Source: Fictibacillus arsenicus (lineage in GTDB: Bacteria; Bacillota; Bacilli; Bacillales; Fictibacillaceae). Taken from it: DNA of 64,000 bases. Position numbers and translations under genes: made by a program. Below are positions 4,088-19,965 of the stretch, in pieces. Within the stretch, counting starts at the first letter, position 1. Every line of letters starts with the position of its first letter. Under the pieces are notes generated by a model. The model was given only the letters and a program-made list of their open reading frames with translations, ran no database searches and was not told the DNA's origin. Where the stretch lies: assembly GCF_001642935.1 (NCBI RefSeq), contig NZ_CP016761.1, positions 3,534,001-3,598,000 of the forward strand, given 5' to 3'.

Positions 4088-4218
4088 AGTTGATCTCCGT
4101 TCCAGATGCTCGCTTTCCGCGGGGCGGGCGGTGAGCCTCCTTGGCGCTTTGCACCATTAGGAGTCTCACCTGTCCCCCTGATCCCGCAGGAGTCTCGCAC
4201 CTTGCACTCCAATCAACT
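4088..4218. repeat. Palindromic MITE-like Bacillus intergenic repeat, about 131 bp
   Basis: The element is bounded by AGTTGAT (4088-4094) and its inverse complement ATCAACT (4212-4218). It contains the GC-rich blocks GCTCGCTTTCCGCGGGGC and CCCGCAGGAGTCTCGCACCT. It is much richer in GC than the flanking sequence and has no ORF. I recognise this sequence type as a dispersed repeat in several Bacillus-group genomes. It sits between mngA and mngB and could fold into a long imperfect hairpin in the operon mRNA. Confidence 0.75.
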
Positions 4219-4260
4219 ATTCAATGATGAACTACCAAAAACTTTAGAAAACACTATTTC

Positions 4261-6222
4261 TTAAGCTTGTCTCTCTTTTTTCTTTAAAATCGCAAAACGG
4301 ATAAAGATGTTCGCGAATGCGATGAATCCTGCACCGACAACTAGTCCTAACAGGTACGCCCATAAGTTTTCAACAAGCGGCCAGCCCCAGATTGCCGGAA
4401 GCGGAAGCCATTGAACAGCTCCTAGTAAAACAGCTGTACTTGCTCCTAGGATTGCACCGATAATGTTAATCGGAATCGTGATCAATGGGTTACGAAGCAT
4501 GAACGGAATCGCACCCTCAGAGATCGCAAGGAATCCTAATAATAGTGATGTGTTTCCTGCAACACGAAGGTCAGCCGGGAATACACGGCGTCCCACTACA
4601 TATTTGTCGATAATAACTGCTAGTCCAAGTCCAATCGGCGGAATAACGATCGCCAACACACGAGCAGTCAAAGGATAAACTTCATCAGCCGCAAGTCCGA
4701 TGGCAATCGCACCGGCTGCTTTGTTGATCGGTCCACCAAGGTCAAAAGCAGTTGCAGACGCGATGATAGAAGCTAACACAACATCTCCAGTACCTTGCGC
4801 CGCTTCAATCCAATTACGCAGAACAACATTCAGACCACCAAACACAGGGTCTACAATATAAAAGTTTAAGAAGAAGATCGATAAAACTGAGATTGCCGGG
4901 ATGATAAACATCGGTTTCATCGCAGCCAAGTTCTTACTCAATTGAATCTTTTGGTTCAAGAAACGAGCGATGTAACCCGCTGCCAAACCAAGAATTAAAG
5001 CACCCAAGAAACCAGACGGAATACCTTCAGGGTTATCCCAGAACGTGTAATGAAGTCCGCCCGCAAAAGCTCCTCCGATAAAACCAGCTACTAAACCAAC
5101 ACGGTCAGCTAGTGAATAGGCAACGAACGCCGCAAATATCGGATACATAAACTTAAAGATTAGTCCGCCAAACTTGTCTAAATGATGCAAAATAACAAAA
5201 AGTTCATTTGAGTGTGTCGCATATTTCGGATCACCGAGTTCGTTTACAAGACCAAATGGCATCGCACCAAGCTTCGCGATCCCCATCATCAGACCGCCGG
5301 CAACGATAACCGGGATCATGTAAGAAATCCCTGTCATAACCGCTTGGACCATGTCTTTAAAGAATCCGCCGCCGTTTGAAGAAGTAGTTGATGACTCGTC
5401 CTCATCACCAGCCTCAACCACTCCATCAGGGTTGTCGAGCGCTTTTTGAATCAATTCTTTACCGCGTCTGAGTGGCTCCGCAACACGTGTTGCAACGTAT
5501 GCTTTCCCAGCGAAACGCTCTTTCTTTTTAGGAGCGATGTCTGTTGCGAAGATAACCGCATCTGCATTTTTAATAACATCAGCAGTTAGCTCGTCCTCAA
5601 TCCCGTTAGCCCCTTGTTTTTCAACAAGTACTTTAACACCTAATTCGCGGCCACCTTTTTCTAAAGCTTCAGCCGACATATACGTATGTGCGATCCCTGT
5701 TGCACAAGCCGTAATCGCAACAACCGTTTTTGTAAACTCTTTTTCAACTGGTGCTTCTGTTTTTTCTTCAACATCCAGTCTGTTTAAAAATTCTTCAGAC
5801 GTTTCTGCAGCCATCAAGCCCTCTAAATAGCCGTCGCGCATTAAGTTTGTGCTCAATGTAGACAATACTTTCAAGTGCGTTGTGCCTGCTTCACTTTCAG
5901 GAATCGCGATCAGGAACACGAGCTGAACTTTGTTGTTCGGGTCGATGCTTTCCCAGTCTCCAAGTGCCGTCTTCAAACGAGCTACTGCAAATACTGCTTT
6001 TTTAACTGTAGTAGATTTACCATGCGGAATCGCAAGACCTTTCTCCATTCCTGTTGGTGATTGCTCTTCCCGTTTTAAAACCGCTTCCAATAAAGCGTCC
6101 TCTGATTCTATATAACCTTCTTTGTAAATGTTAGAAATTAGCTGCCGGATGACTTGCTCTTTATTTTGAGCGTCAACATCGAACATTACTAAATTCGGAT
6201 GGGTCATGTTTCTAAGTTGCAT
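4261..6222 (-). CDS. mngA: PTS fructose-family EIIABC permease, MngA-like
   Basis: This 653-residue fusion has the order IIA-IIB-IIC. IIA carries the phosphorylated His67 in GLAIPHGKS. IIB carries Cys173 in ITACATGIAHTY. IIC (about residue 280 on) has many membrane spans. The protein imports and phosphorylates its sugar using phosphoenolpyruvate. The linked GH38 and GH13_18 genes suggest mannosyl- or glucosylglycerate; fructose is the alternative, but no fructose-1-phosphate kinase is present. A GTG three codons upstream overlaps the Shine-Dalgarno AGGAG, so the ATG at 6222, 8 bases beyond it, is preferred. It is divergent from the RpiR-type regulator. Confidence 0.85.
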   Translation of the reverse strand: MQLRNMTHPNLVMFDVDAQNKEQVIRQLISNIYKEGYIESEDALLEAVLKREEQSPTGMEKGLAIPHGKSTTVKKAVFAVARLKTALGDWESIDPNNKVQLVFLIAIPESEAGTTHLKVLSTLSTNLMRDGYLEGLMAAETSEEFLNRLDVEEKTEAPVEKEFTKTVVAITACATGIAHTYMSAEALEKGGRELGVKVLVEKQGANGIEDELTADVIKNADAVIFATDIAPKKKERFAGKAYVATRVAEPLRRGKELIQKALDNPDGVVEAGDEDESSTTSSNGGGFFKDMVQAVMTGISYMIPVIVAGGLMMGIAKLGAMPFGLVNELGDPKYATHSNELFVILHHLDKFGGLIFKFMYPIFAAFVAYSLADRVGLVAGFIGGAFAGGLHYTFWDNPEGIPSGFLGALILGLAAGYIARFLNQKIQLSKNLAAMKPMFIIPAISVLSIFFLNFYIVDPVFGGLNVVLRNWIEAAQGTGDVVLASIIASATAFDLGGPINKAAGAIAIGLAADEVYPLTARVLAIVIPPIGLGLAVIIDKYVVGRRVFPADLRVAGNTSLLLGFLAISEGAIPFMLRNPLITIPINIIGAILGASTAVLLGAVQWLPLPAIWGWPLVENLWAYLLGLVVGAGFIAFANIFIRFAILKKKERQA

Positions 6223-6332: not shown

Positions 6333-6352
6333 AATGAAAAATGGGCTATACT
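6325..6352 (+). promoter_or_regulatory. Sigma-A-type promoter of the RpiR-family regulator
   Basis: TTGTAC (6325-6330) and TATACT (6347-6352) are separated by 16 bases. The start codon follows at 6389. Confidence 0.55.
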
Positions 6353-6388
6353 AAAGGAAAGACATGTACGGAAAAGAGGAAGTCACTC

Positions 6389-7135
6389 ATGGGGAAAGTC
6401 CTGGATCAGTTCGGAAGCCGCCTGGCCGAACTCACACCAACTGAAAAACAAGTGCTCTACTATATAGATGGGAATCTAGACGCGGCGAAAAAACATTCAC
6501 TGACCGAGATCGCAAAAGTGAACAACGTGAGTACCACAACGATCGTTCGGATGTCTCACAAACTCGGATTAGAAGGCTTTTCCGAGCTGAAATATATATT
6601 GAAGACGATTGAAAACCAGCAATCGCTACTGGATAACAATCCAGTTGACCGCTATAAAGAAGAGTTCGTCTCTGCGTTCGAGACGATCCAAACGCGTGAG
6701 CTTGAAAAATTGAGCGAGAAAATGGTGAACGCAAAACGCGTTATCGTAGTCGGAGTCGGCTTGTCCAAAATGATGGCGGAGTATTTTAGCAAGCTTTTGA
6801 TGCAGACGAATAAACAAACCCACTATACATATGAATCCCATATGATCGACCTGCTGCCAAACATGGTTCAGCCAGATGACCTTGTTTTCTTTATCTCATC
6901 AAGCGGCGAAACGAAAACTTTAATACAAGCCGCGGAAAAACTAACATATCAAGTAGTAGACACAGCAGCCATCACAAACTCGTCTGATTCTACGCTTGGT
7001 AAAATGGTCAAAACGAACTTAAGCATGACCGTCGACCGCGTGAAGTTCGCCGGGTATGACGTCACAGCGAGATCAACGCTGATGCTGCTGATTGATTTGC
7101 TGTTTGAGAGTTATTTGAAGAAGAGCGTGAAGTAG
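6389..7135 (+). CDS. RpiR/MurR-family transcriptional regulator of the hexosyl-glycerate operon
   Basis: The 248-residue protein has an N-terminal helix-turn-helix (STTTIVRMSHKLGLEGF, about residues 45-65) and a C-terminal SIS phosphosugar-binding domain (about 120-245) with FISSSGETKT. AGAGGA lies 8 bases before the ATG at 6389; an in-frame ATG at 6341 lies inside the promoter and is unlikely. It is divergent from the PTS/mannosidase operon, so it probably senses the phosphorylated hexosyl-glycerate made by the permease. Whether it activates or represses is not visible. Confidence 0.85.
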   Translation: MGKVLDQFGSRLAELTPTEKQVLYYIDGNLDAAKKHSLTEIAKVNNVSTTTIVRMSHKLGLEGFSELKYILKTIENQQSLLDNNPVDRYKEEFVSAFETIQTRELEKLSEKMVNAKRVIVVGVGLSKMMAEYFSKLLMQTNKQTHYTYESHMIDLLPNMVQPDDLVFFISSSGETKTLIQAAEKLTYQVVDTAAITNSSDSTLGKMVKTNLSMTVDRVKFAGYDVTARSTLMLLIDLLFESYLKKSVK

Positions 7136-8181: not shown

Positions 8182-8235
8182 ATTGACGAAACTGCCATCA
8201 TCCGATACATTTATGAAAAAGTAAATACAATCAGC

Positions 8236-8288
8236 AAAGGAGCTTTCCATCGCTATACTTCGGGTATAGGACTGGGGCTCCTTTTTTG
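8236..8288 (+). terminator. Terminator of pssA
   Basis: AAAGGAGC (8236-8243) pairs with GCTCCTTT (8277-8284), followed by Ts. An inner hairpin CTATAC-TTCG-GGTATAG sits in the loop. Confidence 0.8.
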
Positions 8289-8304
8289 TTCAGGAGGGAT
8301 AAAC

Positions 8305-9516
8305 GTGTCTTTTTTACAGTTAGCAGAATCCATCAAGCACCGAATCGTCGAATACCGTCGTCACCTGCACCAATATCCGGAACTGAGTTTTTCCGAATAC
8401 AAAACCGCTGAATTTGTTGCAAATATTCTTGAAGAAAACAACATCGAGGTGTTAAGGAGCGTAGCCGAAACTGGTGTTGTCGGACTCATAAAGGGAGATT
8501 CACCGGGTAAAACCATTGCACTGCGGGCAGATATGGACGCACTCCCGATCCAGGAACAGACCAACCTCAATTTCAGCTCAAACAACCCAGGTGTTATGCA
8601 TGCTTGCGGACACGATTTCCACACATCAATCCTACTAGGCGTTGCGATACTATTGAACCAGCATCGTCACCTGATCAAAGGAAACATCAAGCTTATCTTC
8701 CAGCCGGCTGAAGAAAAATTGACAGGTGCAAAAAAGATGATCGGAAAAGGCGTGCTTCAAAACCCCAACGTGGATGGGATTATGGCGCTGCACTGCTGGC
8801 CTGATCTTCCTGCCGGTACGATCGGAATCAGAAAAGGACCGATTACAGCAGCTGCTGATTTTATTGATATTACGATTCATGGAACAGCCGGTCACGCCGC
8901 TCATCCTCATAAGTGTGTAGATCCGATCGTTATCGCAGGTCATGTTGTTTCGACCTTGCAAACCGTGATTTCACGTGAGGTTGCACCTACTGACCCAGCC
9001 GTCCTCACCATCGGAAAAATTAACGGCGGTACAGCACCTAACGTGATTCCTTCGACCGTTCATTTGTCTGGCATGATTCGGACGGTAAGCCCTGATCTTC
9101 AAAAAAGAATGCCTGAAATCATTAATAGAGTTGTAACAAAAACAGCGGAAAGCATGAACGGTGAAGCTGAATTGACTTACACGATGGCGACTCCCCCGCT
9201 GATCAGCGACGCTGCCATGGTGGAGTTGATCGACAGCGTTGTTTCAGAAACGCTCGGTCAAGACCGCTTAGTCTATCTCGAAAATCCATCACTAGGTTCT
9301 GAAGATTTTTCGTTTTACGCGGAACAGGTGCCAGGCGTTCTCTTCCGATTAGGCACACATAATAAAAAACCAGAATCAAAACTTTCGCTGCATAATGCTG
9401 GCGTGGTTTTTGATGAAAATGCGCTCACAACCGGGGTTTCTGTCATGTGTGAAGCTGCCGTTCGTTTCCTAAGCCCCCAAACCACATCCAAACAAACACT
9501 TACTGGAAAGGTTTGA
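8305..9516 (+). CDS. M20-family amidohydrolase (N-acyl-amino-acid hydrolase type)
   Basis: The 403-residue protein resembles metal-dependent amidohydrolases that release amino acids from N-acyl conjugates (hippurate, IAA-amino acids). Metal-binding motifs are HACGHDFH (Cys101, His103), PAEE (Glu136-Glu137) and ALHCWPD (His163). A dimerisation domain containing GTAGHAAHPH follows. It starts with GTG, seven bases after AGGAGG. The next gene has its own promoter, starting four bases after this stop. Substrate is unknown. Given the downstream locus, an N-glutamyl amide is a conceivable but unproven substrate. Confidence 0.8.
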   Translation: MSFLQLAESIKHRIVEYRRHLHQYPELSFSEYKTAEFVANILEENNIEVLRSVAETGVVGLIKGDSPGKTIALRADMDALPIQEQTNLNFSSNNPGVMHACGHDFHTSILLGVAILLNQHRHLIKGNIKLIFQPAEEKLTGAKKMIGKGVLQNPNVDGIMALHCWPDLPAGTIGIRKGPITAAADFIDITIHGTAGHAAHPHKCVDPIVIAGHVVSTLQTVISREVAPTDPAVLTIGKINGGTAPNVIPSTVHLSGMIRTVSPDLQKRMPEIINRVVTKTAESMNGEAELTYTMATPPLISDAAMVELIDSVVSETLGQDRLVYLENPSLGSEDFSFYAEQVPGVLFRLGTHNKKPESKLSLHNAGVVFDENALTTGVSVMCEAAVRFLSPQTTSKQTLTGKV

Positions 9517-9519
9517 TTA

Positions 9520-9548
9520 TTGACAGAATATTAACATTATTTTAGAAT
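9520..9548 (+). promoter_or_regulatory. Strong sigma-A promoter of the eutW-like operon
   Basis: TTGACA (9520-9525), a 17-base spacer and TAGAAT (9543-9548). The transcript would begin near 9555 and run directly into the attenuator hairpins at 9571. Confidence 0.75.
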
Positions 9549-9570
9549 CAATCTATAAGTGAAGTACGAA

Positions 9571-9640
9571 AGCAAAGGGGCTATGTATGGGTATTCCTGC
9601 GGATTTAGCGGGATTATTTGTGCCGCCCCTTTTTGTGTTT
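9571..9640 (+). promoter_or_regulatory. ANTAR-type antiterminator hairpin and competing terminator before the histidine kinase gene
   Basis: AGC (9571-9573) and GCT (9580-9582) close a six-base loop AAAGGG with A at loop position 1 and G at position 4, the known ANTAR recognition pattern. An outer TAC/GTA pairing can extend the stem. The loop and its 3' arm form AAAGGGGC (9574-9581), which pairs perfectly with GCCCCTTT (9625-9632) followed by TTTTTGTGTTT, a terminator. The two structures exclude each other. A second upstream ANTAR hairpin was not identified. Confidence 0.6.
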
Positions 9641-9682
9641 CTAGGAGTCAGCCTTCTTAAGTAGTGAGAAAGGAGACAAACC

Positions 9683-11098
9683 ATGCACCGTACCATTCAA
9701 GAACTCTGTAGCCAATACACCACCTTAACCCGTTCAGACATTGACATCATTATCGAAAAATCAAAGTCCCTTCAACTCACTGCCGATCTAACCCAAGCAA
9801 ACCTATTTATCGATTGTCCAGCAAACGACGGCAAGCACGCCATCGTCGTTGCTGAAGCAAAGCCTGCCAATGTTCCTTCTCTTTACTCAAAATCTGTTGT
9901 CGGAAAGTACGCCTATGCGTCCTTTGAGCCTGCCGTCGCTTTTACCCATAAAACCGGCAAGCCGATGAAACGCATGCGTGCCATCACGCAAGAAGCGAAA
10001 TACGTGAAACAAAGTGTTGTTCCTATTAAAAATGGACACGGTGAAACGATCGGTTCACTCATCATGGAAGAAGACGTGAGCGAACAAGTCCATCACGAAA
10101 ATAAAGTAAAAGCTCTTTCAGAAACGAACGAACAGCTAAGCCAAACCTTAATCGGACTTACTGAGCAAGACTCCATCATCTCTAACATGATTCAGGAATC
10201 TCTCCTGCTTCTCGATTCAAAAGGCAGAATTTTGTATTACAACTCATGTGCAGGTTGTCTGATTAAAGAGCTGGATGGCAAAACCGATATCCTTGGAACG
10301 TTTATCCACGACCGCCTCCCTTTTATCACGGGAATCTATGAAAAAAGTGAAAGCATTCTACAGCAAGAAGTAAATGTCGGAAAAAAAGTGCTCGAAGTGA
10401 AGCAGATCATACTCGTTAACCAACGGCAAATCACAGGGATCCTCGTCGTGATCAGGGATCTTACGGAGCTCCGGGAAAAAGAACGCCAGCTCATGGTGAA
10501 GTCAGCGGTCATCCAGGAAATTCATCATCGTGTAAAAAACAACCTGCAAACTGTATCCAGCCTTCTGCGGCTGCAAATGAAACGCGGAGGCGGTCCGGAA
10601 AGTATTCAGCAAAGTCTAAACCGAATCTCCAGCATAGCGGCCGTTCATGAAGAGCTGCTCGAAAGTTCCAAGATTGATGAAGTCGAGATTAAGCAGTTAA
10701 TTGAACGCATTGGACAGATGTCTATCCAGAGCAGGATGTGTGCAGATGCAGAAGTGTCTATCGAGTTTCACGGTGAAGAGATGTATTTAAAATCAGATGT
10801 TGCCGTTTCTCTTGCGCTTACCATCAACGAGCTTATTCAGAACTGTTTGAAGCATGCATTTAAATACAGGAACCACGGAAACATTCTTATTCATTTTTCT
10901 GATGCTCAGGATCATTTTGAGGTCTCGGTTGAGGATAACGGCATCGGCTATTCTTCCTCTAATCAATCCTCGTTAGGACTCGATATTGTGAACACGATTG
11001 TGTGTCATGACTTAGCAGGAACGTTTACTATTGAAAAAACAAAGAGCGGTACAAAAGCGGTTATCACTTTTCCATTAAAAGAGGTGGAAGCAGTTTGA
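9683..11098 (+). CDS. eutW: EutW-like sensor histidine kinase (HisKA_2 type)
   Basis: The 471-residue kinase lacks transmembrane segments, so it is probably cytosolic. Residues 1-135 look like the EutW/Pdtas-type sensor domain (ADLTQANLFIDCP, VVGKYAYASFEPAV). A PAS-like region follows at about 165-260. The HisKA_2 phosphoacceptor region EIHHRVKNNLQ has His281/His282, and the ATPase has NELIQNCLKHA and EDNGIGY. Its TGA overlaps the start of the ANTAR regulator gene by four bases. Ethanolamine is the likely signal, from the EutW resemblance and the permease in the locus; direct evidence for the ligand is lacking. Confidence 0.78.
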   Translation: MHRTIQELCSQYTTLTRSDIDIIIEKSKSLQLTADLTQANLFIDCPANDGKHAIVVAEAKPANVPSLYSKSVVGKYAYASFEPAVAFTHKTGKPMKRMRAITQEAKYVKQSVVPIKNGHGETIGSLIMEEDVSEQVHHENKVKALSETNEQLSQTLIGLTEQDSIISNMIQESLLLLDSKGRILYYNSCAGCLIKELDGKTDILGTFIHDRLPFITGIYEKSESILQQEVNVGKKVLEVKQIILVNQRQITGILVVIRDLTELREKERQLMVKSAVIQEIHHRVKNNLQTVSSLLRLQMKRGGGPESIQQSLNRISSIAAVHEELLESSKIDEVEIKQLIERIGQMSIQSRMCADAEVSIEFHGEEMYLKSDVAVSLALTINELIQNCLKHAFKYRNHGNILIHFSDAQDHFEVSVEDNGIGYSSSNQSSLGLDIVNTIVCHDLAGTFTIEKTKSGTKAVITFPLKEVEAV

Positions 11099-11673
11099 AA
11101 CCTAAAATCATTGTGATTGAAGATGAAGCGATTTTGCGAATGGATCTAAAAGAAATGCTTACCGATGCAGGCTATGACGTGATTGCAGAAGGTGATAACG
11201 GAGAAAAAGCAATTGAGCTTGCTCACCAGTTCAAGCCTGATTTAATGATCATGGATATTAAAATGCCGAAGATGGACGGGCTAAAAGCAAGCCGGATTAT
11301 CGCCAAACAAAGTAAAACCCCGATTTTGATGCTGACGGCATTCAGCCAGAAGGAGTTTGTGGAAGATGCGAAAAAAGCCAATGTGCTTGGATATCTTGTA
11401 AAGCCCATCTCTGAGGCGAATCTGGTACCCGCAGTAGAAATCGCACTCTCTCAAGCTCAGCAGCGTGTGCAATTTGAAGATGAACTTTTACAAAAAGATA
11501 AAAAAATGAATGCCCGAAAGCAGATTGAACGTGCAAAAGGCGTCCTCATGAAAGTGAAGAAGCTGAACGAACAAGCTGCATATGAAAAGATGCGAAACTT
11601 CAGCATGAAACAGCAAGTCTCGCTTGAACGCACAGCAAATGCCATTTTAAAAAAGTACGCGAATGATATGTGA
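11095..11673 (+). CDS. eutV: EutV-like ANTAR response regulator
   Basis: The 192-residue protein has a receiver domain (residues 1-120) with acidic pocket Glu9-Asp10, phosphoacceptor Asp54 in MIMDIKMPKMDG and the LVKPIS lysine. The C-terminal ANTAR RNA-binding domain (about 130-190, RKQIERAKGVLMKV) follows. ANTAR proteins bind paired hairpins and stop terminator formation. The gene starts with TTG after GAGGTGG and overlaps the kinase stop. Two AAAG-loop hairpins in this locus fit as its targets. Confidence 0.85.
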   Translation: MKPKIIVIEDEAILRMDLKEMLTDAGYDVIAEGDNGEKAIELAHQFKPDLMIMDIKMPKMDGLKASRIIAKQSKTPILMLTAFSQKEFVEDAKKANVLGYLVKPISEANLVPAVEIALSQAQQRVQFEDELLQKDKKMNARKQIERAKGVLMKVKKLNEQAAYEKMRNFSMKQQVSLERTANAILKKYANDM

Positions 11674-11687
11674 CGAATGATATGTGA
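11660..11687 (+). repeat. Perfect 14-bp tandem duplication across the eutV-like stop codon
   Basis: CGAATGATATGTGA occurs at 11660-11673 and again at 11674-11687. The first copy supplies the codons for Asn-Asp-Met and the stop; the second falls just outside the gene. It looks like a recent slippage event. Confidence 0.85.
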
Positions 11688-11711
11688 TCAAAGACATGTA
11701 AATAGCAACCC

Positions 11712-11773
11712 GGCAAAGACGCCCGAGAAATACATCAACCATGTATGTCCCTGGGCGTCTTTTGTCTTGTTTT
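11712..11773 (+). promoter_or_regulatory. ANTAR-type antiterminator hairpin and terminator before the aldehyde dehydrogenase gene
   Basis: GGC (11712-11714) and GCC (11721-11723) close the six-base loop AAAGAC, again with A1 and G4. The loop plus 3' arm form AAAGACGCCC (11715-11724), which pairs perfectly with GGGCGTCTTT (11753-11762) and is followed by a T-rich tail. An inner ATACAT/ATGTAT helix extends that terminator. The design matches the leader at 9571. ATGT/ACAT (11682-11697) upstream is a loose candidate for the first ANTAR hairpin, but its loop is 8 bases. Confidence 0.6.
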
Positions 11774-11816
11774 ACTCTCTTATTCTCCAAAACTATCCTT
11801 ACAGGAGGTATGAAAC

Positions 11817-13292
11817 ATGGAAAAAACGACACTGAATTACCTATGGATTAACGGTGAGAAAATCAGTACATCTGAGACTATCGATGTTATCAACCCGGCG
11901 ACTGGTGAAGTGATCGACCAAGTGCCTAATGGTTGTGAAAAAGAAACAAAGCTTGCGATCAACGCTGCCTATGAAGCTTTTAAACCGTGGAAGAAGCTCA
12001 CCCCCGGAAAACGGGAGGCTTACCTAGTAAAGTGGGCTGATAATTTACTAGAAAACCGTGATGAACTGGCTGCTATTTTAACGGAAGAACAAGGAAAGCC
12101 AATAAGTGAATCGCGAGGTGAAATTGAAGGATGTGCAACGTTCATCAGATGGTACGCCGAGGAAGGAAAACGGGTTTACGGCGAAGTGATCACGGGCTCC
12201 AGCGAAAACCAGCGCATCTCGGTCATCAAACAGCCGGTTGGAGTATGCGGGCTGATCACACCGTGGAACTTCCCTGGCGCGATGGTGGCACGGAAAACCG
12301 CTCCTGCTCTTGCGGCTGGCTGTACGGTCGTTGTGAAACCTGCGAGTGAAACGCCGAGAATTGCCATCGCAATCTTTGAACAGCTCATGAAAACCGGTAT
12401 CCCAGCAGGGGTCGCGAATCTTGTAACCGGGAAAGCATCTGTTATTGGTGAGACGCTATTAGAAGATAGACGGGTGAAGAAGATTTCGTTTACTGGTTCA
12501 ACCGAAATCGGAAAGCAACTCATGAAGCGAGCAGCCGATCAAGTGAAACGTATTTCGCTGGAGCTTGGGGGAAATGCACCAGCGATCGTCTTCCCTGACG
12601 CGAATCTTGACCTCGCTGCTGAGAAAATCGTCGACAATAAGTTCGAAAACTGCGGACAGATGTGCAACGGGATAAACGTCATTTATGCCCATGAAGAAAT
12701 CAAGGAAAAGCTCACTGAAAAAATCGTAAATCTAGTAAAAGAGCTAAAAGTAGGCTCGGGGTCTGTCCCGGGGTCAGACCCCGGGACAGACCCCATACAA
12801 ATTGGACCTTTAGTCAACGAAGCAGCACTCAAAAACGTCGAAGAATTGCTTCAAGATGCTAAAGAAAAAGGTGCAACAGTGGAAACTGGCGGCGAGCGAA
12901 CCGGTGACTCCACCGGCTACTTCTTTCAGCCAACTGTACTCAGCGATGTCACACTCGATATGAAACTGACACAAGATGAAATTTTCGGTCCGGTCGCTCC
13001 TATCCTCTCTTTCCAAAGAGAACAGGAGGTTGTGGAATTCACCGAGAAAAGCCCTTACGGATTGGCAGCTTACTTCTTCACCCGTGATGTAAACCGCGTC
13101 TACCGCATGGCTGAAGAACTCGACTCAGGCATGATCGGCGTAAATGGAACATCGCTGAGTGTCCCTCAAGCTCCGTTTGGCGGAATTAAAGAAAGCGGCA
13201 TCGGCCGTGAAGGCGGATTTTACGGATTAGAAGAGTTTCTCGAACTGAAATACATCTCACTCACGCTCGAAAATGAAGAAGGAGGTTATTAA
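11817..13292 (+). CDS. NAD(P)-dependent aldehyde dehydrogenase (GabD/AldA-like) with a palindrome-encoded insertion
   Basis: The 491-residue enzyme has the ALDH signature: Glu249 in SLELGGNAP and catalytic Cys283 in NCGQMCNG. The closest type is succinate-semialdehyde dehydrogenase. Residues 314-326 (SGSVPGSDPGTDP) replace the short loop usually seen before IGPL; they are encoded by a perfect palindrome. In this operon it would oxidise an aldehyde derived from gamma-glutamylethanolamide to gamma-glutamylglycine; that substrate is inference. AGGAGG precedes the ATG. The ligase gene follows after one base. Confidence 0.85.
   Translation: MEKTTLNYLWINGEKISTSETIDVINPATGEVIDQVPNGCEKETKLAINAAYEAFKPWKKLTPGKREAYLVKWADNLLENRDELAAILTEEQGKPISESRGEIEGCATFIRWYAEEGKRVYGEVITGSSENQRISVIKQPVGVCGLITPWNFPGAMVARKTAPALAAGCTVVVKPASETPRIAIAIFEQLMKTGIPAGVANLVTGKASVIGETLLEDRRVKKISFTGSTEIGKQLMKRAADQVKRISLELGGNAPAIVFPDANLDLAAEKIVDNKFENCGQMCNGINVIYAHEEIKEKLTEKIVNLVKELKVGSGSVPGSDPGTDPIQIGPLVNEAALKNVEELLQDAKEKGATVETGGERTGDSTGYFFQPTVLSDVTLDMKLTQDEIFGPVAPILSFQREQEVVEFTEKSPYGLAAYFFTRDVNRVYRMAEELDSGMIGVNGTSLSVPQAPFGGIKESGIGREGGFYGLEEFLELKYISLTLENEEGGY
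12758..12794. repeat. Perfect 37-bp palindrome (18-bp arms) inside the aldehyde dehydrogenase gene
   Basis: GGGGTCTGTCCCGGGGTC (12758-12775), a single A, then its exact inverse complement (12777-12794). GGGGTC/GACCCC palindromes of this sort occur as dispersed repeats in some Bacillus genomes, usually between genes. Here it keeps the reading frame and adds a Gly/Pro/Asp-rich loop. Confidence 0.92.
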
Positions 13293-13293
13293 A

Positions 13294-14712
13294 ATGAGTC
13301 AAGAAACAATCGTAAATTTATCCAAGGAAGACGCAAAGAAAACAGGATTGATCTCTAAAGAAACCTTGCTTTCATTGCTGGAAGACGGATCGATCGACAC
13401 CGTGAATCTAGCAATCTGTGATATGCAAGGGCGACTGATGGGAAAGCGTCTGACGGCTGACTATTGTTTAGAAAACAACCTCGATAAAGGAACACATTTT
13501 TGCAACTATCTGCTTGGTACAGACTTTGAAATGAACACGCCTGACGGCTACGAAATGATGAACTGGGAGAACGGCTACGGTGACTGGCTCGCCCTTCCCG
13601 ACTGGTCAACGCTCCGTATCGTGCCTTGGGCGGACCGTACCGCCATCGTTTTTTGCGATGTGTACGACGAAAAGACCGGTGATCCCATCCCGATTGCGCC
13701 TCGTACCCTTTTGAAGAACCAAATTGAAAAAGCAGCAGCAAAAGGCTTCGAACTCAACATGGCAAGTGAACTCGAATTCTATCTGTTCAAAGAGTCCTTT
13801 GAAGATCTTCATCAAAAAGGCTATGAAGATGTTGAGACGGCTGGACACATAAACGAAGATTACAACCTTCTTCAAGGGACACGAAACGAACCGTTTTATC
13901 AAAAAATACGCCGGAACATGGCCAAAGCGGATATCCCAATTGAGTCTTCAAAAGGTGAGGCGTTTAAAGGACAGCATGAGATTAACATGCGTTATTCCCA
14001 CGCACTAAACGCTGCCGACAACCACATCATGTTCAAACACGGCATGAAAGAAATATGTATGCAAGACAATTTATCTGTCACGTTTATGGCAAAGCCAAAC
14101 CACCAATGGACAGGCTCGAGCGGCCACATCCACCTGAGCCTTTGGGACAAGCGTGCGGGCGAGAATGTTTTTTATGATCCGGATAGCGGCAATCATAACA
14201 TGTCTGAAACGATGCAGCATTTTTTAGCTGGTGTCTTAAAATACTCACGTGATTTTGCCCTGTTTTTCGCTCCATACGTGAACTCGTATAAAAGATACGC
14301 TCAAGAAAGCTGGGCCCCAGTTAACATCATCTGGAGTCATGACAACCGTTCATCCGGCTACCGAATTGTAGGTAACGGAAAAAGTCTCCGCATGGAAACA
14401 CGTATTCCAGGAGCGGATATGAATCCTTATTTAGCCTATACCGCATTGATCGGCGCTGGGCTTCAAGGCATTGAGGAACGTTTAGAACTCGAACCTGAAT
14501 TCAAAGGCAACGCTTATAAAGATAAAAACATTCCGCGTATTCCAGGTTCGCTATATGAGGCCATCCAATGCTGGGAAGATAGTGAAGTCGTTCAAAAAGT
14601 GTTGGGCGAAAAAGCAGCCTCCCACTACCTCTTTACCGCAAAACTAGAACAAAAACAGTTTGATCGTATCGTTACAAAATGGGAACGCCAGCGTTATTTC
14701 GAGCAGTGCTAG
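13294..14712 (+). CDS. Glutamine-synthetase-like gamma-glutamyl ligase (GlnA4/PuuA family)
   Basis: The 472-residue protein has the GS beta-grasp region (residues 35-140, LAICDMQGRLMGKR) and the catalytic domain with Glu-rich ASELEFYLF, SGHIHLSLW and NRSSGYRIVG. Its context differs from biosynthetic GlnA: it is flanked by aldehyde oxidation genes, an ethanolamine-type permease and a EutWV-like pair. I infer gamma-glutamylation of ethanolamine (or another amine such as putrescine). GGAGG lies before the ATG at 13294; an in-frame ATG at 13273 lies inside the previous gene and is less likely. Confidence 0.82.
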   Translation: MSQETIVNLSKEDAKKTGLISKETLLSLLEDGSIDTVNLAICDMQGRLMGKRLTADYCLENNLDKGTHFCNYLLGTDFEMNTPDGYEMMNWENGYGDWLALPDWSTLRIVPWADRTAIVFCDVYDEKTGDPIPIAPRTLLKNQIEKAAAKGFELNMASELEFYLFKESFEDLHQKGYEDVETAGHINEDYNLLQGTRNEPFYQKIRRNMAKADIPIESSKGEAFKGQHEINMRYSHALNAADNHIMFKHGMKEICMQDNLSVTFMAKPNHQWTGSSGHIHLSLWDKRAGENVFYDPDSGNHNMSETMQHFLAGVLKYSRDFALFFAPYVNSYKRYAQESWAPVNIIWSHDNRSSGYRIVGNGKSLRMETRIPGADMNPYLAYTALIGAGLQGIEERLELEPEFKGNAYKDKNIPRIPGSLYEAIQCWEDSEVVQKVLGEKAASHYLFTAKLEQKQFDRIVTKWERQRYFEQC

Positions 14713-14743
14713 CAGATTATCTGAACTTGAGGAGGAACAAAAG

Positions 14744-15511
14744 ATGAGACTACAAGACAAAGTATGCATCATAACAGGGGCCGGCGGCGGAATGGGAAAA
14801 ACCGCTGCTGAAATGTTCGCAAAAGAAGGCGCAAAAATCGCAGTATTTGAGATGAACGAAAAAAGCGGCTCGGAGGCGGCTGAAGCGATTCGTCAAGCTG
14901 GCGGTGACGCGACCTACTTTTATTGCAACGTAACGGACGAAAAAAGCGTAAAAAAAGCCGTTGGTGATACCGTAGAAAAATACGGAAAAATCGATGTCCT
15001 CTATAACAACGCCGGCGTCATGATTGCAGAGGATCACTCTGTCATTGATACTCCTGAAGACGCGTGGGACTTGGTTATGAACGTAAACGTTAAAGGGATC
15101 TATTTTATGTGCAAGTATGTCATTCCGGAAATGCAGAAAAACCAATCAGGATCGATCATCAACATAGCAAGTTTTGTAGCGTTCCTCGGGTGCAGCGTTC
15201 CACAAGATGCGTACACAGCTTCAAAAGGAGCCGTTAATGCATTGACAAAATCGCTCGCTATCCAGTTCCGTCCGGAAGGCATCCGTACCAATTCTATCTG
15301 CCCTGGACCGATCGAAACGCCCCTATTGATGGAATGGCTCGTAAAAGATGAAGAAGCAAAAAAGGTACGGTTGTCGCGACAACCGGCCGGTCGATTCGGA
15401 AAACCGGAAGATATCGTGTACGCAGCCATCTATTTAGCATCTGACGAGTCCGATTGGACGAACGGGGCGCTATTAAACATCGACGGCGGGATAACGTCGA
15501 ACTATTTCTAG
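14744..15511 (+). CDS. Short-chain dehydrogenase/reductase
   Basis: This 255-residue classical SDR has TGAGGGMGK at residues 11-19 for nucleotide binding, NNAG at 88-91, and the catalytic triad Ser143, Tyr157 and Lys161 (YTASK). GGAGG precedes the ATG at 14744; the longer frame from 14660 overlaps the ligase gene and lacks a good site. Placed between a gamma-glutamyl ligase and an ethanolamine permease, it could oxidise the terminal alcohol of gamma-glutamylethanolamide to the aldehyde used by the ALDH. That step is inferred from context only. Confidence 0.85.
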   Translation: MRLQDKVCIITGAGGGMGKTAAEMFAKEGAKIAVFEMNEKSGSEAAEAIRQAGGDATYFYCNVTDEKSVKKAVGDTVEKYGKIDVLYNNAGVMIAEDHSVIDTPEDAWDLVMNVNVKGIYFMCKYVIPEMQKNQSGSIINIASFVAFLGCSVPQDAYTASKGAVNALTKSLAIQFRPEGIRTNSICPGPIETPLLMEWLVKDEEAKKVRLSRQPAGRFGKPEDIVYAAIYLASDESDWTNGALLNIDGGITSNYF

Positions 15512-15535
15512 GGTAAAAGCTCTATATTCAAGGCC

Positions 15536-15638
15536 GTGAGTAGCTTATTCTCACAGAAACACACCACAATCTCACGGATTTCTAACTTATTCTCACGAGT
15601 TTTTACCTTAATCTCACGAAAATGCAACACATACTCGC
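15536..15638 (+). repeat. Array C: five CTCAC-core units with exact 21-base period
   Basis: CTCAC cores start at 15550, 15571, 15592 and 15613, with a decayed CTCGC at 15634; every step is 21 bases. The commonest unit is ATCTCACGAA. GTGAG at 15536-15540 makes a small hairpin with the first core, reminiscent of the hairpin leader of arrays A and B. The array fills the gap between the SDR and permease genes. Array D carries the same core in the opposite orientation. Confidence 0.78.
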
Positions 15639-15704
15639 GAGACGGCAATTCTAGACACATTCAGAACACCGATGCAACATCCAAATTCGAAAGGAGTGTT
15701 TAGA

Positions 15705-17120
15705 TTGGGGGAAGTAAATCACGATAAGCAAGGCCTTCAAAAAGCGTTAAAACCCATACACTTATGGGCAATCGCAGTCGGAATGGTTATCTCAGGTCAG
15801 TACTTCGGCTGGAACTACGGGTTTGAACAAGGCGGTACGCTCGGGCTTATGGGTGCCGCGCTTTTCATCACCATCTTCTACACCGCCTTTATTTTCAGCT
15901 ATTCGGAACTATCGACCTCCATTCCACACGCAGGCGGGCCATCGGCTTATGCCAGGCGTGCGATGGGACCATATGCAGGTTTTATGACGGGAATCTCGGT
16001 ACTGATCGAGTTCGTGTTCGCCCCGCCAGCCATTGCCGTTGCGACCGGGGCATACATCAACTTTCTCATCCCGGCAATCAACCCGGTTTATGCGACAGTT
16101 GCCGTGTTCGTCTTTTTCATTTTAATCAACATGATCGGTGTAAAAGGTGCCGCACTTATCGAGCTAGTCGCCACAATCATCGCACTCATCGGACTTGCTA
16201 TTTATTTTGCTGCTGGCTCCACACACGTCCAGCTAGACTACATTTTTAACGAAAATGCACTTCCGAACGGATGGACCGGCATGTGGATGGCAATTCCATT
16301 TGCGATCTGGTTCTATCTAGCGGTTGAAGGCGGTGCGATGGCAGCTGAAGAAGTTCAGAATCCCAAAAAAGACATTCCAAAAGGCTTCATCGCCGGAATT
16401 TTAACACTAGCCATTTGTACGATAGGAACGCTCTTCATAACAGCCGGCTTGGGTGGCGGTGTTGGACAGCCAGCAGATAACCCGCTTCCACAGGCACTCG
16501 CTTCCGTTTACGGTGAAGGTCACTTCTTTCCTAAGCTAGTAGCTGTGATCGGACTCGCCGGGTTAATCGCGAGCCTTCACGGCATCATCATCGGCTACTC
16601 ACGCCAGACATTCGCCCTTTCACGTGCCGGGTACCTGCCTAAGTTTTTATCAAGATTATCAAAGCGTCAAATTCCAACTTGGGGACTTCTCCTCCCGGGC
16701 GGAATCGGTGTCATTGCAGCAGCTAACGCCACATTTGCCAACCAGCTTATTATCCTAGCGGTATTTGGTGCTGCCATGATGTATTGTTTAAGCTTGGTTT
16801 CCCTGTTCATTTTAAGAAAAAAAGAGCCAAACCTGCACCGGCCGTTTAAAGTCTCATACCCTCTCGTTCCAGGTGTGGCAATCGTTCTCGGGGTTATCTC
16901 GCTTTTCTGTGTGATCTATTACAGCGTGTTTAATCAATCGCTGCCGTTGTTTGGAGTAAACATTCCGCTGCTTGGAGTGCTCCTGTTCATTTATGGAGCC
17001 GCAACCGTCTATTATTTAGCGGTTGGACGCCATAAACTTCTTCCGATCGAAGAAGAGTTTAGAGTGTTTGATGAATTAGAGGCGGAAAGTGATGAGAGTT
17101 TGAGAAAGAAGAACGCATAA
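15705..17120 (+). CDS. Ethanolamine-type APC-family permease
   Basis: The 471-residue protein has about twelve membrane segments. Its start HLWAIAVGMVISGQYFGWN is characteristic of the ethanolamine permease (Eat) branch of the amino acid-polyamine-organocation superfamily. I place the start at TTG 15705 because AAAGGAG lies 8 bases upstream; an ATG at 15672 lacks a ribosome-binding site. It ends the ethanolamine-like cluster and is followed by a strong terminator. This gene is the best sequence-based clue that the locus handles ethanolamine. Confidence 0.85.
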   Translation: MGEVNHDKQGLQKALKPIHLWAIAVGMVISGQYFGWNYGFEQGGTLGLMGAALFITIFYTAFIFSYSELSTSIPHAGGPSAYARRAMGPYAGFMTGISVLIEFVFAPPAIAVATGAYINFLIPAINPVYATVAVFVFFILINMIGVKGAALIELVATIIALIGLAIYFAAGSTHVQLDYIFNENALPNGWTGMWMAIPFAIWFYLAVEGGAMAAEEVQNPKKDIPKGFIAGILTLAICTIGTLFITAGLGGGVGQPADNPLPQALASVYGEGHFFPKLVAVIGLAGLIASLHGIIIGYSRQTFALSRAGYLPKFLSRLSKRQIPTWGLLLPGGIGVIAAANATFANQLIILAVFGAAMMYCLSLVSLFILRKKEPNLHRPFKVSYPLVPGVAIVLGVISLFCVIYYSVFNQSLPLFGVNIPLLGVLLFIYGAATVYYLAVGRHKLLPIEEEFRVFDELEAESDESLRKKNA

Positions 17121-17122
17121 TG

Positions 17123-17149
17123 AAAAGGCCATCTTTATTGGCCTTTTTT
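17123..17149 (+). terminator. Terminator of the ethanolamine-type permease gene
   Basis: AAAAGGCCA (17123-17131) pairs with TGGCCTTTT (17139-17147) followed by Ts. Confidence 0.88.
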
Positions 17150-17240
17150 ACGTTCATAAGAGTTTAATAGCACCCATAACATCTATAGAAGATTATTCGT
17201 ATATATGTTAAAATTCCAATAAAAGGATGTTAGGTGCTGT

Positions 17241-17663
17241 ATGAAAAATTTCATAAGTCTTAAAATGACCAGTAATCTATTGCTTGTTATTAATGGATTC
17301 ATGCTTTTACTGCATATCTTAATCTTGCTCAAAATAGTACCTTATGATTTCATCTGGGGCGGACAAATAAATAATACTGCAGATCTCTATCGGCTAGAAA
17401 GCATCTCAATACTCATACAGTGCGGGTTTATTTTTATCATTTCATTAAGAGCAGGGTACATCTTTCCAGGAAAGCTTAAAAAAACAGCAAATGTGGGTGT
17501 ATGGATAATCTTCATCTTCATGATCTTAAACACAATCGTCAACATTACATCAAGCTCTGGTATTGAATCATTAGTAATGACCCCATTAACGATTATACTC
17601 GCCATATTGACATTCAGGCTAGCCCTCGAAAAAGAGGGCCACAACACAACCATTTCTCACTAA
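17241..17663 (+). CDS. Small membrane protein of unknown function
   Basis: The 140-residue protein has four predicted hydrophobic segments (about residues 13-33, 53-72, 83-101 and 110-127) and little soluble sequence. AAAGGATG lies upstream of the ATG, somewhat far away. It has its own terminator. I do not recognise the family. Confidence 0.65.
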   Translation: MKNFISLKMTSNLLLVINGFMLLLHILILLKIVPYDFIWGGQINNTADLYRLESISILIQCGFIFIISLRAGYIFPGKLKKTANVGVWIIFIFMILNTIVNITSSSGIESLVMTPLTIILAILTFRLALEKEGHNTTISH

Positions 17664-17690
17664 ACAGCTCGCCATTAGAGCTGTTTTTTA
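17662..17690 (+). terminator. Terminator of the small membrane protein gene
   Basis: AAACAGCTC (17662-17670) pairs with GAGCTGTTT (17678-17686), followed by Ts. It overlaps the stop codon. Confidence 0.85.
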
Positions 17691-17818
17691 TTTTCCCTTT
17701 CAAGACAACTGCCTATCATCTTTCCCCCTCCCCCTGCATACAATGAGTTAATACATGAAATATGGTTAAGCCATTACCGAAAGAAATGGACAAATCATGT
17801 TTTGAAGGGAGAGATCGT

Positions 17819-18148
17819 ATGAGCGGATATCCGAACATGAGGGAGTTTTACCAGAAGGGGCTCATTCTTATCGGAGAGAATGATCGAGCGGCTCTTTTGC
17901 AGAAATCAGGAGAAAATACTTCGCACGAAGGGTCCACACACTGGCTCATAGCGATGGAAGGCAGCGAAAAGCAGCCCGATATTTACCAATGGAAGGTTCT
18001 CATCTACCCATCTGATTCAAAAAAAGTAAACTGCTACAAGTCACCGTACTACTCATCACAGCACTTTTCATCCATACACGACGCCATCAATTATTCAAAT
18101 GAGCTGAGCCAAAAAGCCAGAGAAGATCAGCTGAATACCCTCGAATAA
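17819..18148 (+). CDS. Hypothetical soluble protein
   Basis: The 109-residue protein begins MSGYPNMREFYQKG. GAAGGGAGAG lies just upstream of the ATG at 17819, which is better than an in-frame ATG at 17762. The sequence is polar and has no signal peptide or membrane span. It has the look of a small alpha/beta domain (HWLIAMEG, YQWKVLIYPSD). Family not recognised. From 18149 to the gerA-type gene I see only array D and no convincing gene. Confidence 0.6.
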   Translation: MSGYPNMREFYQKGLILIGENDRAALLQKSGENTSHEGSTHWLIAMEGSEKQPDIYQWKVLIYPSDSKKVNCYKSPYYSSQHFSSIHDAINYSNELSQKAREDQLNTLE

Positions 18149-18320
18149 CCACATAGATAGATTATCAGTTTTACCTTAGCTTTTCTTTTTACCTTGGATT
18201 GTGAAATAGTGTACATAAGCCCTCGTCAAATACATAGAACACCAGCAATGAAGTGGATTAGAGCCAGTTCATTTTTATTATGTCTTTTTGGCGATACTTG
18301 CTTGTCGAGCGGTGTCGGCT

Positions 18321-18409
18321 CGAGAGTATATGAAAATTTTCGTGAGAATAGCAGGGAAACTCGTGAGATTACGGGGATTTTTCGTGAGATTAAATATGAA
18401 ACTCGTGAA
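18321..18409 (-). repeat. Array D: four to five units of the array C core in opposite orientation
   Basis: On the plus strand GTGAG cores start at 18342, 18363 and 18384, with GTGAA at 18405, all 21 bases apart; a degenerate GAGAG at 18322 may be a fifth. The unit TTCGTGAGAT is the inverse complement of ATCTCACGAA in array C. It lies upstream of the gerA-type gene. Confidence 0.75.
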
Positions 18410-18582
18410 AAAAAACGTTCCCAAGCGCTTCCCCACCTAAACTTTCCCCAAGTCGTCTGCATTCGCTTCTGCCTACACTCCCTACCATTTTATTTCCCTC
18501 ACTATGCAACCAAAGAATATTCACTCGTGATCACGTCAATACTGCATACTATGACTTTATAGAGAAAGAAGATGGATGCGAA

Positions 18583-19965
18583 ATGACAGAATCATCTCGT
18601 GAATTTCTTACCGCTGATCTATCTCATAATTTAAAAATCATCGAAGAAAAAATGAATAATACTGCTGATTTAAAGATAAGGAAATTATCCTTTCATGGTA
18701 AGACCATTTTCCTTTTATATCTAGATACGATAACGGATAAGGAATCGATTGAAATGCATATCATCAATCCGATTAACAAGCAGATCTCAGAAAGTATTGA
18801 GGGTACGTTAAGCGCAAAACAATTTTCGATTCTCACTACCTTTAATGATATAAGCAACTCATTAGTTGAGGGAAATACGATTTTATTGATGCAAGACGGC
18901 AACATTGCCTATTCGATCGCTACATTGACCGATGAAAAGCGTGCGATAAATGAATCGTTAAACGAAAAAGTGACAATGGGTGCCCATGATAGTTTTGTTG
19001 AAAACGCCAGCACCAATATAGCTTTACTAAGAAAACGGCTCCGATCTGCCGATTTCAAAGTCGAATACCAAAAATTTGGAACAACAACAAATGTTGAAGT
19101 TGCAATCTGCTATATTGAATCAAAAGTGGATCCCGCTGTTCTTCATTCCATTAAAAGCAGATTGGAAAAAATAAATAATACGGAGCTCTATAATGCTCGT
19201 CAGTTGCAAGAAATCCTGGAAGATTACCCGTATTCTCCTTTTCCGCAAACGCTTCGATCGGAAAGGCCAGACCGGGCAGTTATAAATCTTTTAAAAGGAA
19301 GTACGGTTATTTTTCTTGAGCATGAACCTTCTGCCTTAATTACACCTGTCTCTTTTTATTCGTTTTTGAGAAGTCCGGAAGATTATAACTCCAGATGGTT
19401 CGTGAACCTTTTTTATTATTCATTAAGATTACTTGCTTTTATTATGTCCGTAACACTTCCGGCTTTTTATATCGCTGTAAATGCCTATCATTCTTCCATA
19501 TTGCCTGTAAGTACCTTTTATACTCTAAAGCTTTCCGTTTTGAATGTCCCGTTTCATCCTTTTATCGAAGCGGTTATGATGCAGATTATATTGGAATTGT
19601 TGAAGGAAGCATCGGTTAGACTCCCATCGGCGGTTGCCCAAACAATCGGTACTGTTGGGGCGATTGTCATCGGTTCAGCAATCGTTCAAACCAACTTTAT
19701 ATCGAATACAATGGTCGTGGTAATTGCGATTACTGCAGTTTCATCCTTTGTCATGCCGATCGGAGAAATGAGTACAACAATCCGTTTAATGAGTTTTCCA
19801 CTCATTTTTCTAGCAGCCCTTTTTGGCTTTATAGGGATTGCATTCGGATTGATGGTCTATACGACACATCTTGTAAAACTGACATCTGCCGGAAAAGCGT
19901 ATGTAGATTCACCTAACATTCTTCAATCAACGCTAAAAAAAGCACCTAACAAAGGAAAGGCGTAG
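18583..19965 (+). CDS. Spore germination protein, GerA subunit-A family
   Basis: This is the A subunit of a germinant receptor in the spore inner membrane. The 460-residue protein has a soluble N-terminal domain (about residues 1-250, ending PYSPFPQTLRSERPD) and a C-terminal membrane domain of about five spans (FVNLFYYSLRLLAFIMSVTL onward). It starts a three-gene A-B-C operon with its B subunit 7 bases downstream. CATACTA at 18545-18551 resembles a sigma-G -10 box, as expected for forespore genes, but I see no clear -35. Confidence 0.92.
   Translation: MTESSREFLTADLSHNLKIIEEKMNNTADLKIRKLSFHGKTIFLLYLDTITDKESIEMHIINPINKQISESIEGTLSAKQFSILTTFNDISNSLVEGNTILLMQDGNIAYSIATLTDEKRAINESLNEKVTMGAHDSFVENASTNIALLRKRLRSADFKVEYQKFGTTTNVEVAICYIESKVDPAVLHSIKSRLEKINNTELYNARQLQEILEDYPYSPFPQTLRSERPDRAVINLLKGSTVIFLEHEPSALITPVSFYSFLRSPEDYNSRWFVNLFYYSLRLLAFIMSVTLPAFYIAVNAYHSSILPVSTFYTLKLSVLNVPFHPFIEAVMMQIILELLKEASVRLPSAVAQTIGTVGAIVIGSAIVQTNFISNTMVVVIAITAVSSFVMPIGEMSTTIRLMSFPLIFLAALFGFIGIAFGLMVYTTHLVKLTSAGKAYVDSPNILQSTLKKAPNKGKA

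Follow-up and report, generated by a model that had tools for sequence, protein, structure and literature searches.

A candidate B12-independent ethanolamine regulon in Fictibacillus arsenicus combining a gamma-glutamyl pathway with putative EutWV antitermination

The closest described relatives of the locus reported here, which lies within a 64,000-nucleotide stretch of the Fictibacillus arsenicus genome (hereafter the window), fall into two groups of bacterial systems that act on ethanolamine. In the first, ethanolamine is processed through gamma-glutamyl intermediates. According to excerpts of its report, the Streptomyces coelicolor glnA4 cluster (SCO1610-SCO1615) encodes a glutamine synthetase (GS)-like gamma-glutamylethanolamide synthetase, a short-chain dehydrogenase/reductase (SDR), and an aldehyde dehydrogenase (ALDH) (PMC6529630), and the same four-step route is outlined in excerpts concerning the eto operon of Phaeobacter, with Chromohalobacter and Agrobacterium as further cases cited there (PMC10132767). 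The second group comprises the eut operons under control of EutW and EutV, as found in Enterococcus (PMC3369931, PMC8934654, PMC5821096). According to the excerpted literature, Enterococcus faecalis EutV recognizes RNA hexaloops in which positions 1 and 4 are A and G, respectively, the second hexaloop overlapping a terminator (PMC3369931, PMC8934654), and in E. faecalis as well as in Listeria EutV is gated a second time by the supply of adenosylcobalamin (AdoCbl) (PMC5821096). The Fictibacillus locus (8305-17120, + strand) very probably represents an ethanolamine catabolic regulon that requires neither B12 nor a microcompartment, in which a gamma-glutamyl route would be governed by EutWV antitermination through three leader RNAs. 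The route and the mode of antitermination are each known, from Streptomyces and eto and from eut operons, respectively; what is new is their combination, together with a probable last enzyme of the pathway. An earlier note on this DNA had regarded a link between such a ligase and an ANTAR regulator as undescribed, and the literature searched, which was largely without subscription journals and bioRxiv preprints, likewise yielded no report of the gamma-glutamyl route and antitermination together.

The genes of the locus are contiguous, lie on one strand, and belong to a genome of 4.06 Mb assembled as a single contig. An M20D amidohydrolase (8305-9516; GTG start), predicted to hydrolyze gamma-glutamylglycine, is followed by the sensor histidine kinase EutW (9683-11098), which consists of a GAF_PdtaS domain, a variable middle domain, and a HisKA_2/HATPase core, and by the response regulator EutV (11095-11673; TTG start), whose receiver and ANTAR RNA-binding domain account for the one ANTAR match in the whole genome. 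Downstream are a succinate-semialdehyde-dehydrogenase-like ALDH (11817-13292), the predicted gamma-glutamyl-aminoacetaldehyde dehydrogenase; the GS-like ligase (13273-14712), the predicted gamma-glutamylethanolamide synthetase; the SDR, the predicted gamma-glutamylethanolamide dehydrogenase, for which the ATG at 14744 was chosen as start (14744-15511) over the earliest in-frame start, a TTG at 14660; and an APC-family ethanolamine permease (Eat; 15672-17120). Searches of the whole genome returned no matches to EutB or to bacterial microcompartment (BMC) shell proteins (E ≤ 0.001 for both). The set from EutW to the permease is as the earlier note had listed it, and the lack of ammonia-lyase and shell genes that it remarked on extends genome-wide. 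Its range of 9520-17120 contains the genes it named and starts too late, missing the M20 gene of the same set and leaving the leader elements undescribed.

From sequence comparison, a complete route can be proposed in which we infer every substrate, the signal, and antitermination itself. Eat would import ethanolamine, which the ligase, using ATP, would join to the gamma-carboxyl group of glutamate to form gamma-glutamylethanolamide. The SDR would oxidize the alcohol of this intermediate to an aldehyde, from which the ALDH would produce gamma-glutamylglycine, and hydrolysis of the latter by M20 would release glycine and return glutamate, the carrier. On the regulatory side, EutW would sense ethanolamine and phosphorylate EutV, which would then bind a hexaloop (P2) at the 5′ foot of the terminators preceding M20, eutWV, and ALDH-GS-SDR, permitting read-through by RNA polymerase. 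The order permease, ligase, SDR, ALDH had been put forward in the earlier note and gains support from the mutual exclusion of EutB and the ligase, from the shared leaders, and from a ligase that lacks the flap glutamate. Control by EutWV, also anticipated there, can be read from three leader-terminators of the kind found in EutB operons.

The distribution of these genes argues for ethanolamine as the substrate. Searches covered the family of this genome, its phylum, and the order assigned to it, presumably Bacillales or a part split off from it. Among 46 genomes carrying EutV (own included), EutB is present in all 38 that lack the ligase, at a gap of 1.5-4.7 kb from EutV in every case, and in none of the 8 that possess it. 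This set joins an order-wide search, with EutV at least 40% identical over most of its length (40 of 47), to a family search at 50% or more (12 of 27); it includes G108, whose EutV has a stop inside the match, and leaves out G101, G160, and G396 (stops, receiver part matched alone) as well as G293, G356, G388, and G412 (31-36% identity). Fisher tests (p = 4e-9 and 2e-7) ignore the relatedness of the genomes, and these values are not taken as probabilities. A further genome, G261, which has the ligase and no EutV match, is also devoid of EutB, and a species of the same genus as the window, G001, carries EutV with EutB. The ligase itself is rare, as indicated by its presence in 7/34 genomes of the family (E ≤ 1e-60), 6/397 of the order (E ≤ 1e-120), and 4/398 of the phylum (E ≤ 1e-100), own included each time.

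The comparison of gene neighborhoods that the earlier note had called for reveals that the order M20, EutW, EutV, ALDH, GS, SDR, permease is kept in six relatives, loci L002-L006 (genomes G014, G013, G007, G002, and G030) and L016, a degree of conservation that speaks against chance. The L016 genes are 57-81% identical to those of the window, and an extra gene separates M20 from EutW. Two loci are arranged differently. In L017 (G092, from another family), one strand has ALDH-GS-SDR-M20 and the opposite strand carries permease, EutV, and EutW. L018 (G261), which gave no match to EutWV, places M20 (49%) and then an iron-containing alcohol dehydrogenase after the ligase (59%).

Each of the three leaders pairs a EutV-type element, with a box of the form AWGTRAA and a 3-bp hairpin bearing a hexaloop with A1 and G4, with an intrinsic terminator overlapping that hairpin by its 5′ arm; 6-8 bases separate box and P2. 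The M20 leader element (8204-8248, +) carries the box AAGTAAAT at 8219-8226 and the P2 hexaloop AGC-AAAGGA-GCT at 8233-8244, with its terminator at 8236-8287 (+; z -3.89 for 8212-8292). In the eutWV leader (9542-9586, +), the box AAGTGAAG occupies 9557-9564 and the hexaloop AGC-AAAGGG-GCT 9571-9582, and the terminator before eutW spans 9574-9634 (+; z -3.13 for 9525-9660). The ALDH-GS-SDR leader (11681-11727, +) has the box ATGTAAAT at 11696-11703 and the hexaloop GGC-AAAGAC-GCC at 11712-11723, overlapped by a terminator at 11715-11763 (+; z -3.60 for 11660-11790). A short tandem duplication (GACGAATGATATGT-like) across the eutV stop codon, at 11658-11686, lies where the 3′ end of eutV meets the beginning of the ALDH leader. 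A consensus scan also found promoter-like sequences, TTGACG-17-TACATT (8183-8211, +) before M20, from which the RNA start would fall near the AAGTAAAT box, and TTGACA-17-TAGAAT (9520-9548, +; 11/12 positions) before eutWV; such sites are weak when taken alone, the scan having given 11 against 12.6 in shuffled sequence. Were the sites at 8183 and 9520 used, the box of both leaders would sit close to the 5′ end of the RNA. In L002, L003, and L005, an insert of about 200 bases, alike in all three and absent from the window, lies between the eutW terminator and eutW.

The same kind of hairpin-terminator precedes the EutB-type operons of the order (65 candidate sites in 35 loci), and the EutV leaders of L069-L103 and of the window often have a linear box, AAGTRAAT, a few bases 5′ of P2. 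A comparison independent of the ligase loci was possible with a leader model, R1, built from EutB-type leaders alone (38 of the 65 sites, the other 27 being near-duplicates or doubtful). Within the window, its best three matches are the leaders of M20 (31.4 bits), EutW (30.8), and ALDH (17.9), the next match scoring 14.1, and across the 4.06-Mb genome the M20 and EutW leaders rank as the top two, with 150 of 2941 first-look candidates scored. A match at genome position 3617829 (E 9.7) lies in AT-rich sequence that, on reading and with no library search, shows nothing linked to ethanolamine; it was set aside as a chance hit. When R1 was applied to 17 ligase loci, all 21 matches at E ≤ 1 fell in the 7 EutWV-linked loci, 20 of them preceding cluster genes and one a gene of the HAD family in L016, and the 10 ligase loci in which EutWV was not found gave no match at that threshold. 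Sites lie 5′ of M20, EutW, and ALDH in L002-L006 and L016, and 5′ of ALDH and the permease in L017. In the searched region 9000-18600, Rfam returned chance matches alone; nothing reached gathering score in the window, nor in 8 of the 35 EutB-type loci, which indicates that no cobalamin riboswitch separates the two kinds of operon there.

Apart from the leaders, EutW and EutV are homologous to their counterparts in EutWV-controlled eut operons (L069-L103 in this order, and Enterococcus in the excerpted reports: PMC3369931, PMC8934654, PMC5821096), which share with the window the kind of P2 hexaloop-terminator, the inferred signal, and in many cases the upstream box. The two differ in their enzymes: the eut operons rely on EutB and, in L072, the sole locus read gene by gene, on EutH, EutA, EutC, and shell-type genes, whereas the window has the ligase, SDR, ALDH, and M20 instead. 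The best structural match of EutV is E. faecalis EutV (6wsh, E 6.9e-39). An alignment read by eye, with an inferred two-residue shift between the numbering of the chain and that of the paper, allows comparison with the residues given in excerpts of PMC8934654. It shows R142, K143, K149, E160, Y164, R168, and M172 retained and K147 replaced by Arg; N173, R175, and R177, which contact the stem, differ, and a change of this kind is also seen there in the EutB-type EutV of L072. EutV appears to match the known RNA reader in part. It is 40-56% identical to EutB-type EutV proteins. For EutW, the GAF sensor domain and the kinase core share medians of 47.6% and 48.9% identity with EutB-type EutW (n = 35 each), and the middle domain is less conserved (34.6%, n = 32).

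When EutV and EutW sequences are joined and their tree is rooted at the midpoint, the ligase-type proteins sit among the EutB-type ones. The window and its relatives L002-L006 and L016 form one clade (support 1.00) that joins a large EutB-type group (0.98), and L017 branches apart with a support of 0.14. A B12-dependent eut operon is the most likely source of the regulator and leaders, which would have been taken over on one or two occasions. The EutB-type operon of G001 might instead suggest that EutWV are relics of a lost operon of that kind, standing with unresponsive leaders beside an unrelated constitutive pathway. We consider such a history very improbable, given that EutV is only about 51% identical to that of G001, that leaders, terminators, EutW, and EutV are conserved in 7 relatives, and that the enzymes and permease of L017, separate units on opposite strands, each have a EutV-type leader. 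Retention of a working switch, as we prefer to read these data, would mean that two chemically unrelated routes for one nutrient, mutually exclusive in the EutV genomes examined, have one sensor and RNA switch in common, a clean natural case of a regulator that tracks the nutrient and not the enzymes. It would also expose the behavior of the EutV switch in a B12-free pathway, where the AdoCbl gate has no purpose. A more far-reaching version is that EutWV and its leader-terminators moved onto an unrelated, B12-free regulon of several transcripts, including a hitherto unassigned M20 gamma-glutamylglycine hydrolase, with a linear AAGURAAU box, located in promoter-proximal leaders close to the extreme 5′ end of the RNA, replacing the P1 hairpin of E. 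faecalis and forming a second architecture of EutV target in this order. We offer this tentatively, as a possibility and not as an expectation.

The assignment of the enzymes draws on conserved residues and family models. An alignment of the ligase with Escherichia coli GlnA shows conservation of the six metal ligands and of R321, R339, R359, H271, and R344. At the position of the flap residue Glu327, which ammonia-using GS employs, the ligase has Trp, and it has no equivalent of Tyr179. Position D50 is ambiguous: two relatives have Asp there, the window Glu. GlnA4 is described, in the excerpts of its report, as having lost D50, E327, and Y179 (PMC6529630), and loss of the flap Glu327 is thus common to both ligases. 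With the equivalog models of GlnA, type III GS, and gamma-glutamylputrescine synthetase, the ligase stays below the cut-off, and its best structural matches are 11zs (E 7e-126) and 5dm3 (E 3e-124), the latter being, we assume, Csal_0679 of Chromohalobacter. Its closest named relatives are four Fictibacillus records (96-98%) and one from Alkalihalobacillus (78%). As in GlnA4/eto-type pathways, an alcohol dehydrogenase and an aldehyde dehydrogenase both stand beside the ligase. These features are consistent with a gamma-glutamylethanolamide synthetase followed by two oxidations catalyzed by the SDR and ALDH. The permease exceeds the NCBIfam cut-off of TIGR00908, "ethanolamine permease" (477.7 versus 381.75 bits), and is 70% identical to a permease within a EutB operon, with values of 66% and 69% in two more (L097, L103). 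The gap between SDR and permease (15512-15671) holds several imperfect TCTCACGA repeats, and relatives have other short repeats (ATCCACRA) there.

With a changed EutW ligand, the same chemistry could also be applied by an enzyme set of this type to another small amine or amino alcohol (1-amino-2-propanol, 3-aminopropanol, or a polyamine, for instance). GS-like ligases serve many amines, the ALDH resembles semialdehyde dehydrogenases, and the ligase obtains a weak score with the gamma-glutamylputrescine synthetase model (219.9 against a cut-off of 650). We nevertheless find a different substrate improbable, because the exclusion of EutB in EutV genomes is strict, the Eat permease type is shared, the sensor domain is conserved, and the relatives in Thermomicrobium and Embleya are linked to Eat; moreover, a substrate with a secondary alcohol would be oxidized to a ketone, on which the ALDH could not act. 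Ethanolamine is thus the substrate to which the EutB/ligase exclusion, the permease type, the conserved GAF domain, and the Eat-linked relatives point, and the regulator is the strongest clue among them.

The earlier note had ended the cascade at gamma-glutamylglycine. The formation of this compound is supported; it need not be the end point, since an M20 hydrolase with its own EutV-type leader is a constant partner of the other genes. Gamma-glutamylglycine is an N-acyl-glycine and M20, which exceeds the cut-off of TIGR01891, resembles N-acyl-amino-acid hydrolases, making it a candidate for this step. An M20 orthologue (at least 75% identical) occurs in 7/7 ligase-positive and 0/27 ligase-negative genomes of the family (34 in all), in which the best other matches are 45% or less; M20 has its own EutV site in six relatives and adjoins the ligase in both L017 and L018, in arrangements unlike that of the window. 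In L016, a tandem glycine riboswitch (949-1137) and a serine hydroxymethyltransferase gene (1146-2477) lie directly 5′ of M20 and its EutV site, which fits glycine as the product. Alternatively, M20 might be a general aminoacylase that is a neighbor by chance, with gamma-glutamylglycine being cleaved by a gamma-glutamyltranspeptidase (GGT) or a C26 hydrolase. M20 enzymes are numerous in these genomes, Paracoccus carries an FGase, and the excerpted literature suggests enzymes of the FGase or glutamine-amidotransferase type as gamma-glutamylglycine amidohydrolases (PMC10132767, PMC6529630). This alternative seems unlikely to us in view of the way the orthologue tracks and adjoins the ligase, of the M20 leader, and of the adjoining glyA and glycine riboswitch in L016; the whole Fictibacillus genome, in which C26 and GGT were not searched, gave no match to an FGase-type hydrolase, the position of which in GlnA4/eto-type pathways M20 would take here. 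M20 is accordingly the probable gamma-glutamylglycine hydrolase on present comparisons, a new last enzyme of the route and a candidate for the final pathway step in Firmicutes. In L006, a gene of the beta-eliminating-lyase family (829-1920; threonine-aldolase-like) lies two genes 5′ of M20 and perhaps encodes another glycine-using enzyme.

Several observations weigh against the interpretation of the locus as a EutWV-controlled ethanolamine regulon. With 5 members of one genus among them, the 8 ligase genomes amount to some 3-4 independent lineages, and G293, G356, G388, and G412 fall outside the EutB test with a EutV identity of 31-36%; within the 15.5 kb fetched around the ANTAR regulators of these four, no ligase match was found. 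Their loci (L115-L118) contain a second kind of receiver-ANTAR regulator adjoining a kinase that matches EutW in its kinase part only. Among the enzymes, Asn264, which binds glutamate in GSI, is Thr in the ligase; the ALDH scores closest to succinate-semialdehyde dehydrogenases and is 28-29% identical to the ALDHs adjoining the ligases of Paracoccus, Ruegeria, and Allomeiothermus; and the M20 family is broad, with two further members (36-39%) in the Fictibacillus genome. A Robbsia relative of the ligase (46%) stands without any of the partner enzymes as neighbors, and a ligase similarity of about 45% is hence no proof of the pathway by itself. With respect to the leaders, a P1 hexaloop like that of E. 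faecalis was sought and found in 0/3 of the window leaders; a P1-like hairpin in the 40 bases 5′ of P2 occurs in 4/38 EutB-type leaders, compared with 8.3% of shuffled stretches, and its absence from both kinds of operon suggests that in this order they share the same departure from the E. faecalis element. The three window leaders would then be suited to the study of EutV recognition without a P1 hairpin. The box is itself variable, the strict form being present in 21/38 R1 training leaders, and R1 finds no EutV leader belonging to the permease alone in the window. At 17.9 bits, finally, the ALDH leader is not significant genome-wide, falling below a 19.4-bit match elsewhere (E 9.7), and for this reason it rests on conservation: an R1 site precedes ALDH in 7/7 EutWV-linked relatives.

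Beyond the Bacilli-type loci, the earlier note had named Streptomyces GlnA4 as the precedent for a GS-like ligase acting on ethanolamine, which is correct and incomplete, as the proteobacterial eto operons provide another. The glnA4 cluster resembles the window in its ligase, SDR, and ALDH, and in the permease of other Streptomyces. It differs in its regulator, EpuRI, and in the proposed hydrolase, SCO1615 (FGase family/glutamine amidotransferase), which is not of the M20 type, and the excerpted text of the report makes no mention of EutWV or a leader (PMC6529630). Of 35 plasmid records with a relative of the ligase, 7 were opened, and five of their loci, by annotation or tblastn, show a modular pathway. 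A Thermomicrobium plasmid has GS-SDR-eat, Ruegeria has FGase-GS-ALDH-iron-containing alcohol dehydrogenase, and Allomeiothermus has permease-aminotransferase-GS-SDR-ALDH. The Paracoccus plasmid (L105; FGase-TRAP-GS-ALDH-iron-containing alcohol dehydrogenase) has a ligase 48% identical to that of the window, with ALDH (29%) as the sole partner family in common; it differs in its TRAP transporter, alcohol dehydrogenase, FGase-type hydrolase, and RpiR-type regulator. Embleya (Streptomycetaceae) has permease, GS, ALDH, and SDR, as in the glnA4 cluster of the excerpted report (PMC6529630), and the same genes were recovered from Arthrobacter by tblastn only.

Some further genes deserve mention. A phospholipid link through pssA adjoining M20 was dropped, this gene being absent from the fetched stretches of L002, L006, and L016 and having no EutV site 5′ of it, and the gene at 6341-7135 of the window, suspected to be psd, proved to encode an RpiR-type regulator. 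In L016, a HAD-family putative lipoprotein gene (4143-5483, -) is preceded by a EutV-type leader (5704-5747, -), and its product could be a phosphatase that frees ethanolamine from phosphoethanolamine. Elsewhere in the phylum, the distant locus L022 combines the ligase (49%), SDR (61%), and ALDH (34%) with genes for a permease and for a regulator of the AsnC type, the latter being a further regulator for the same module.

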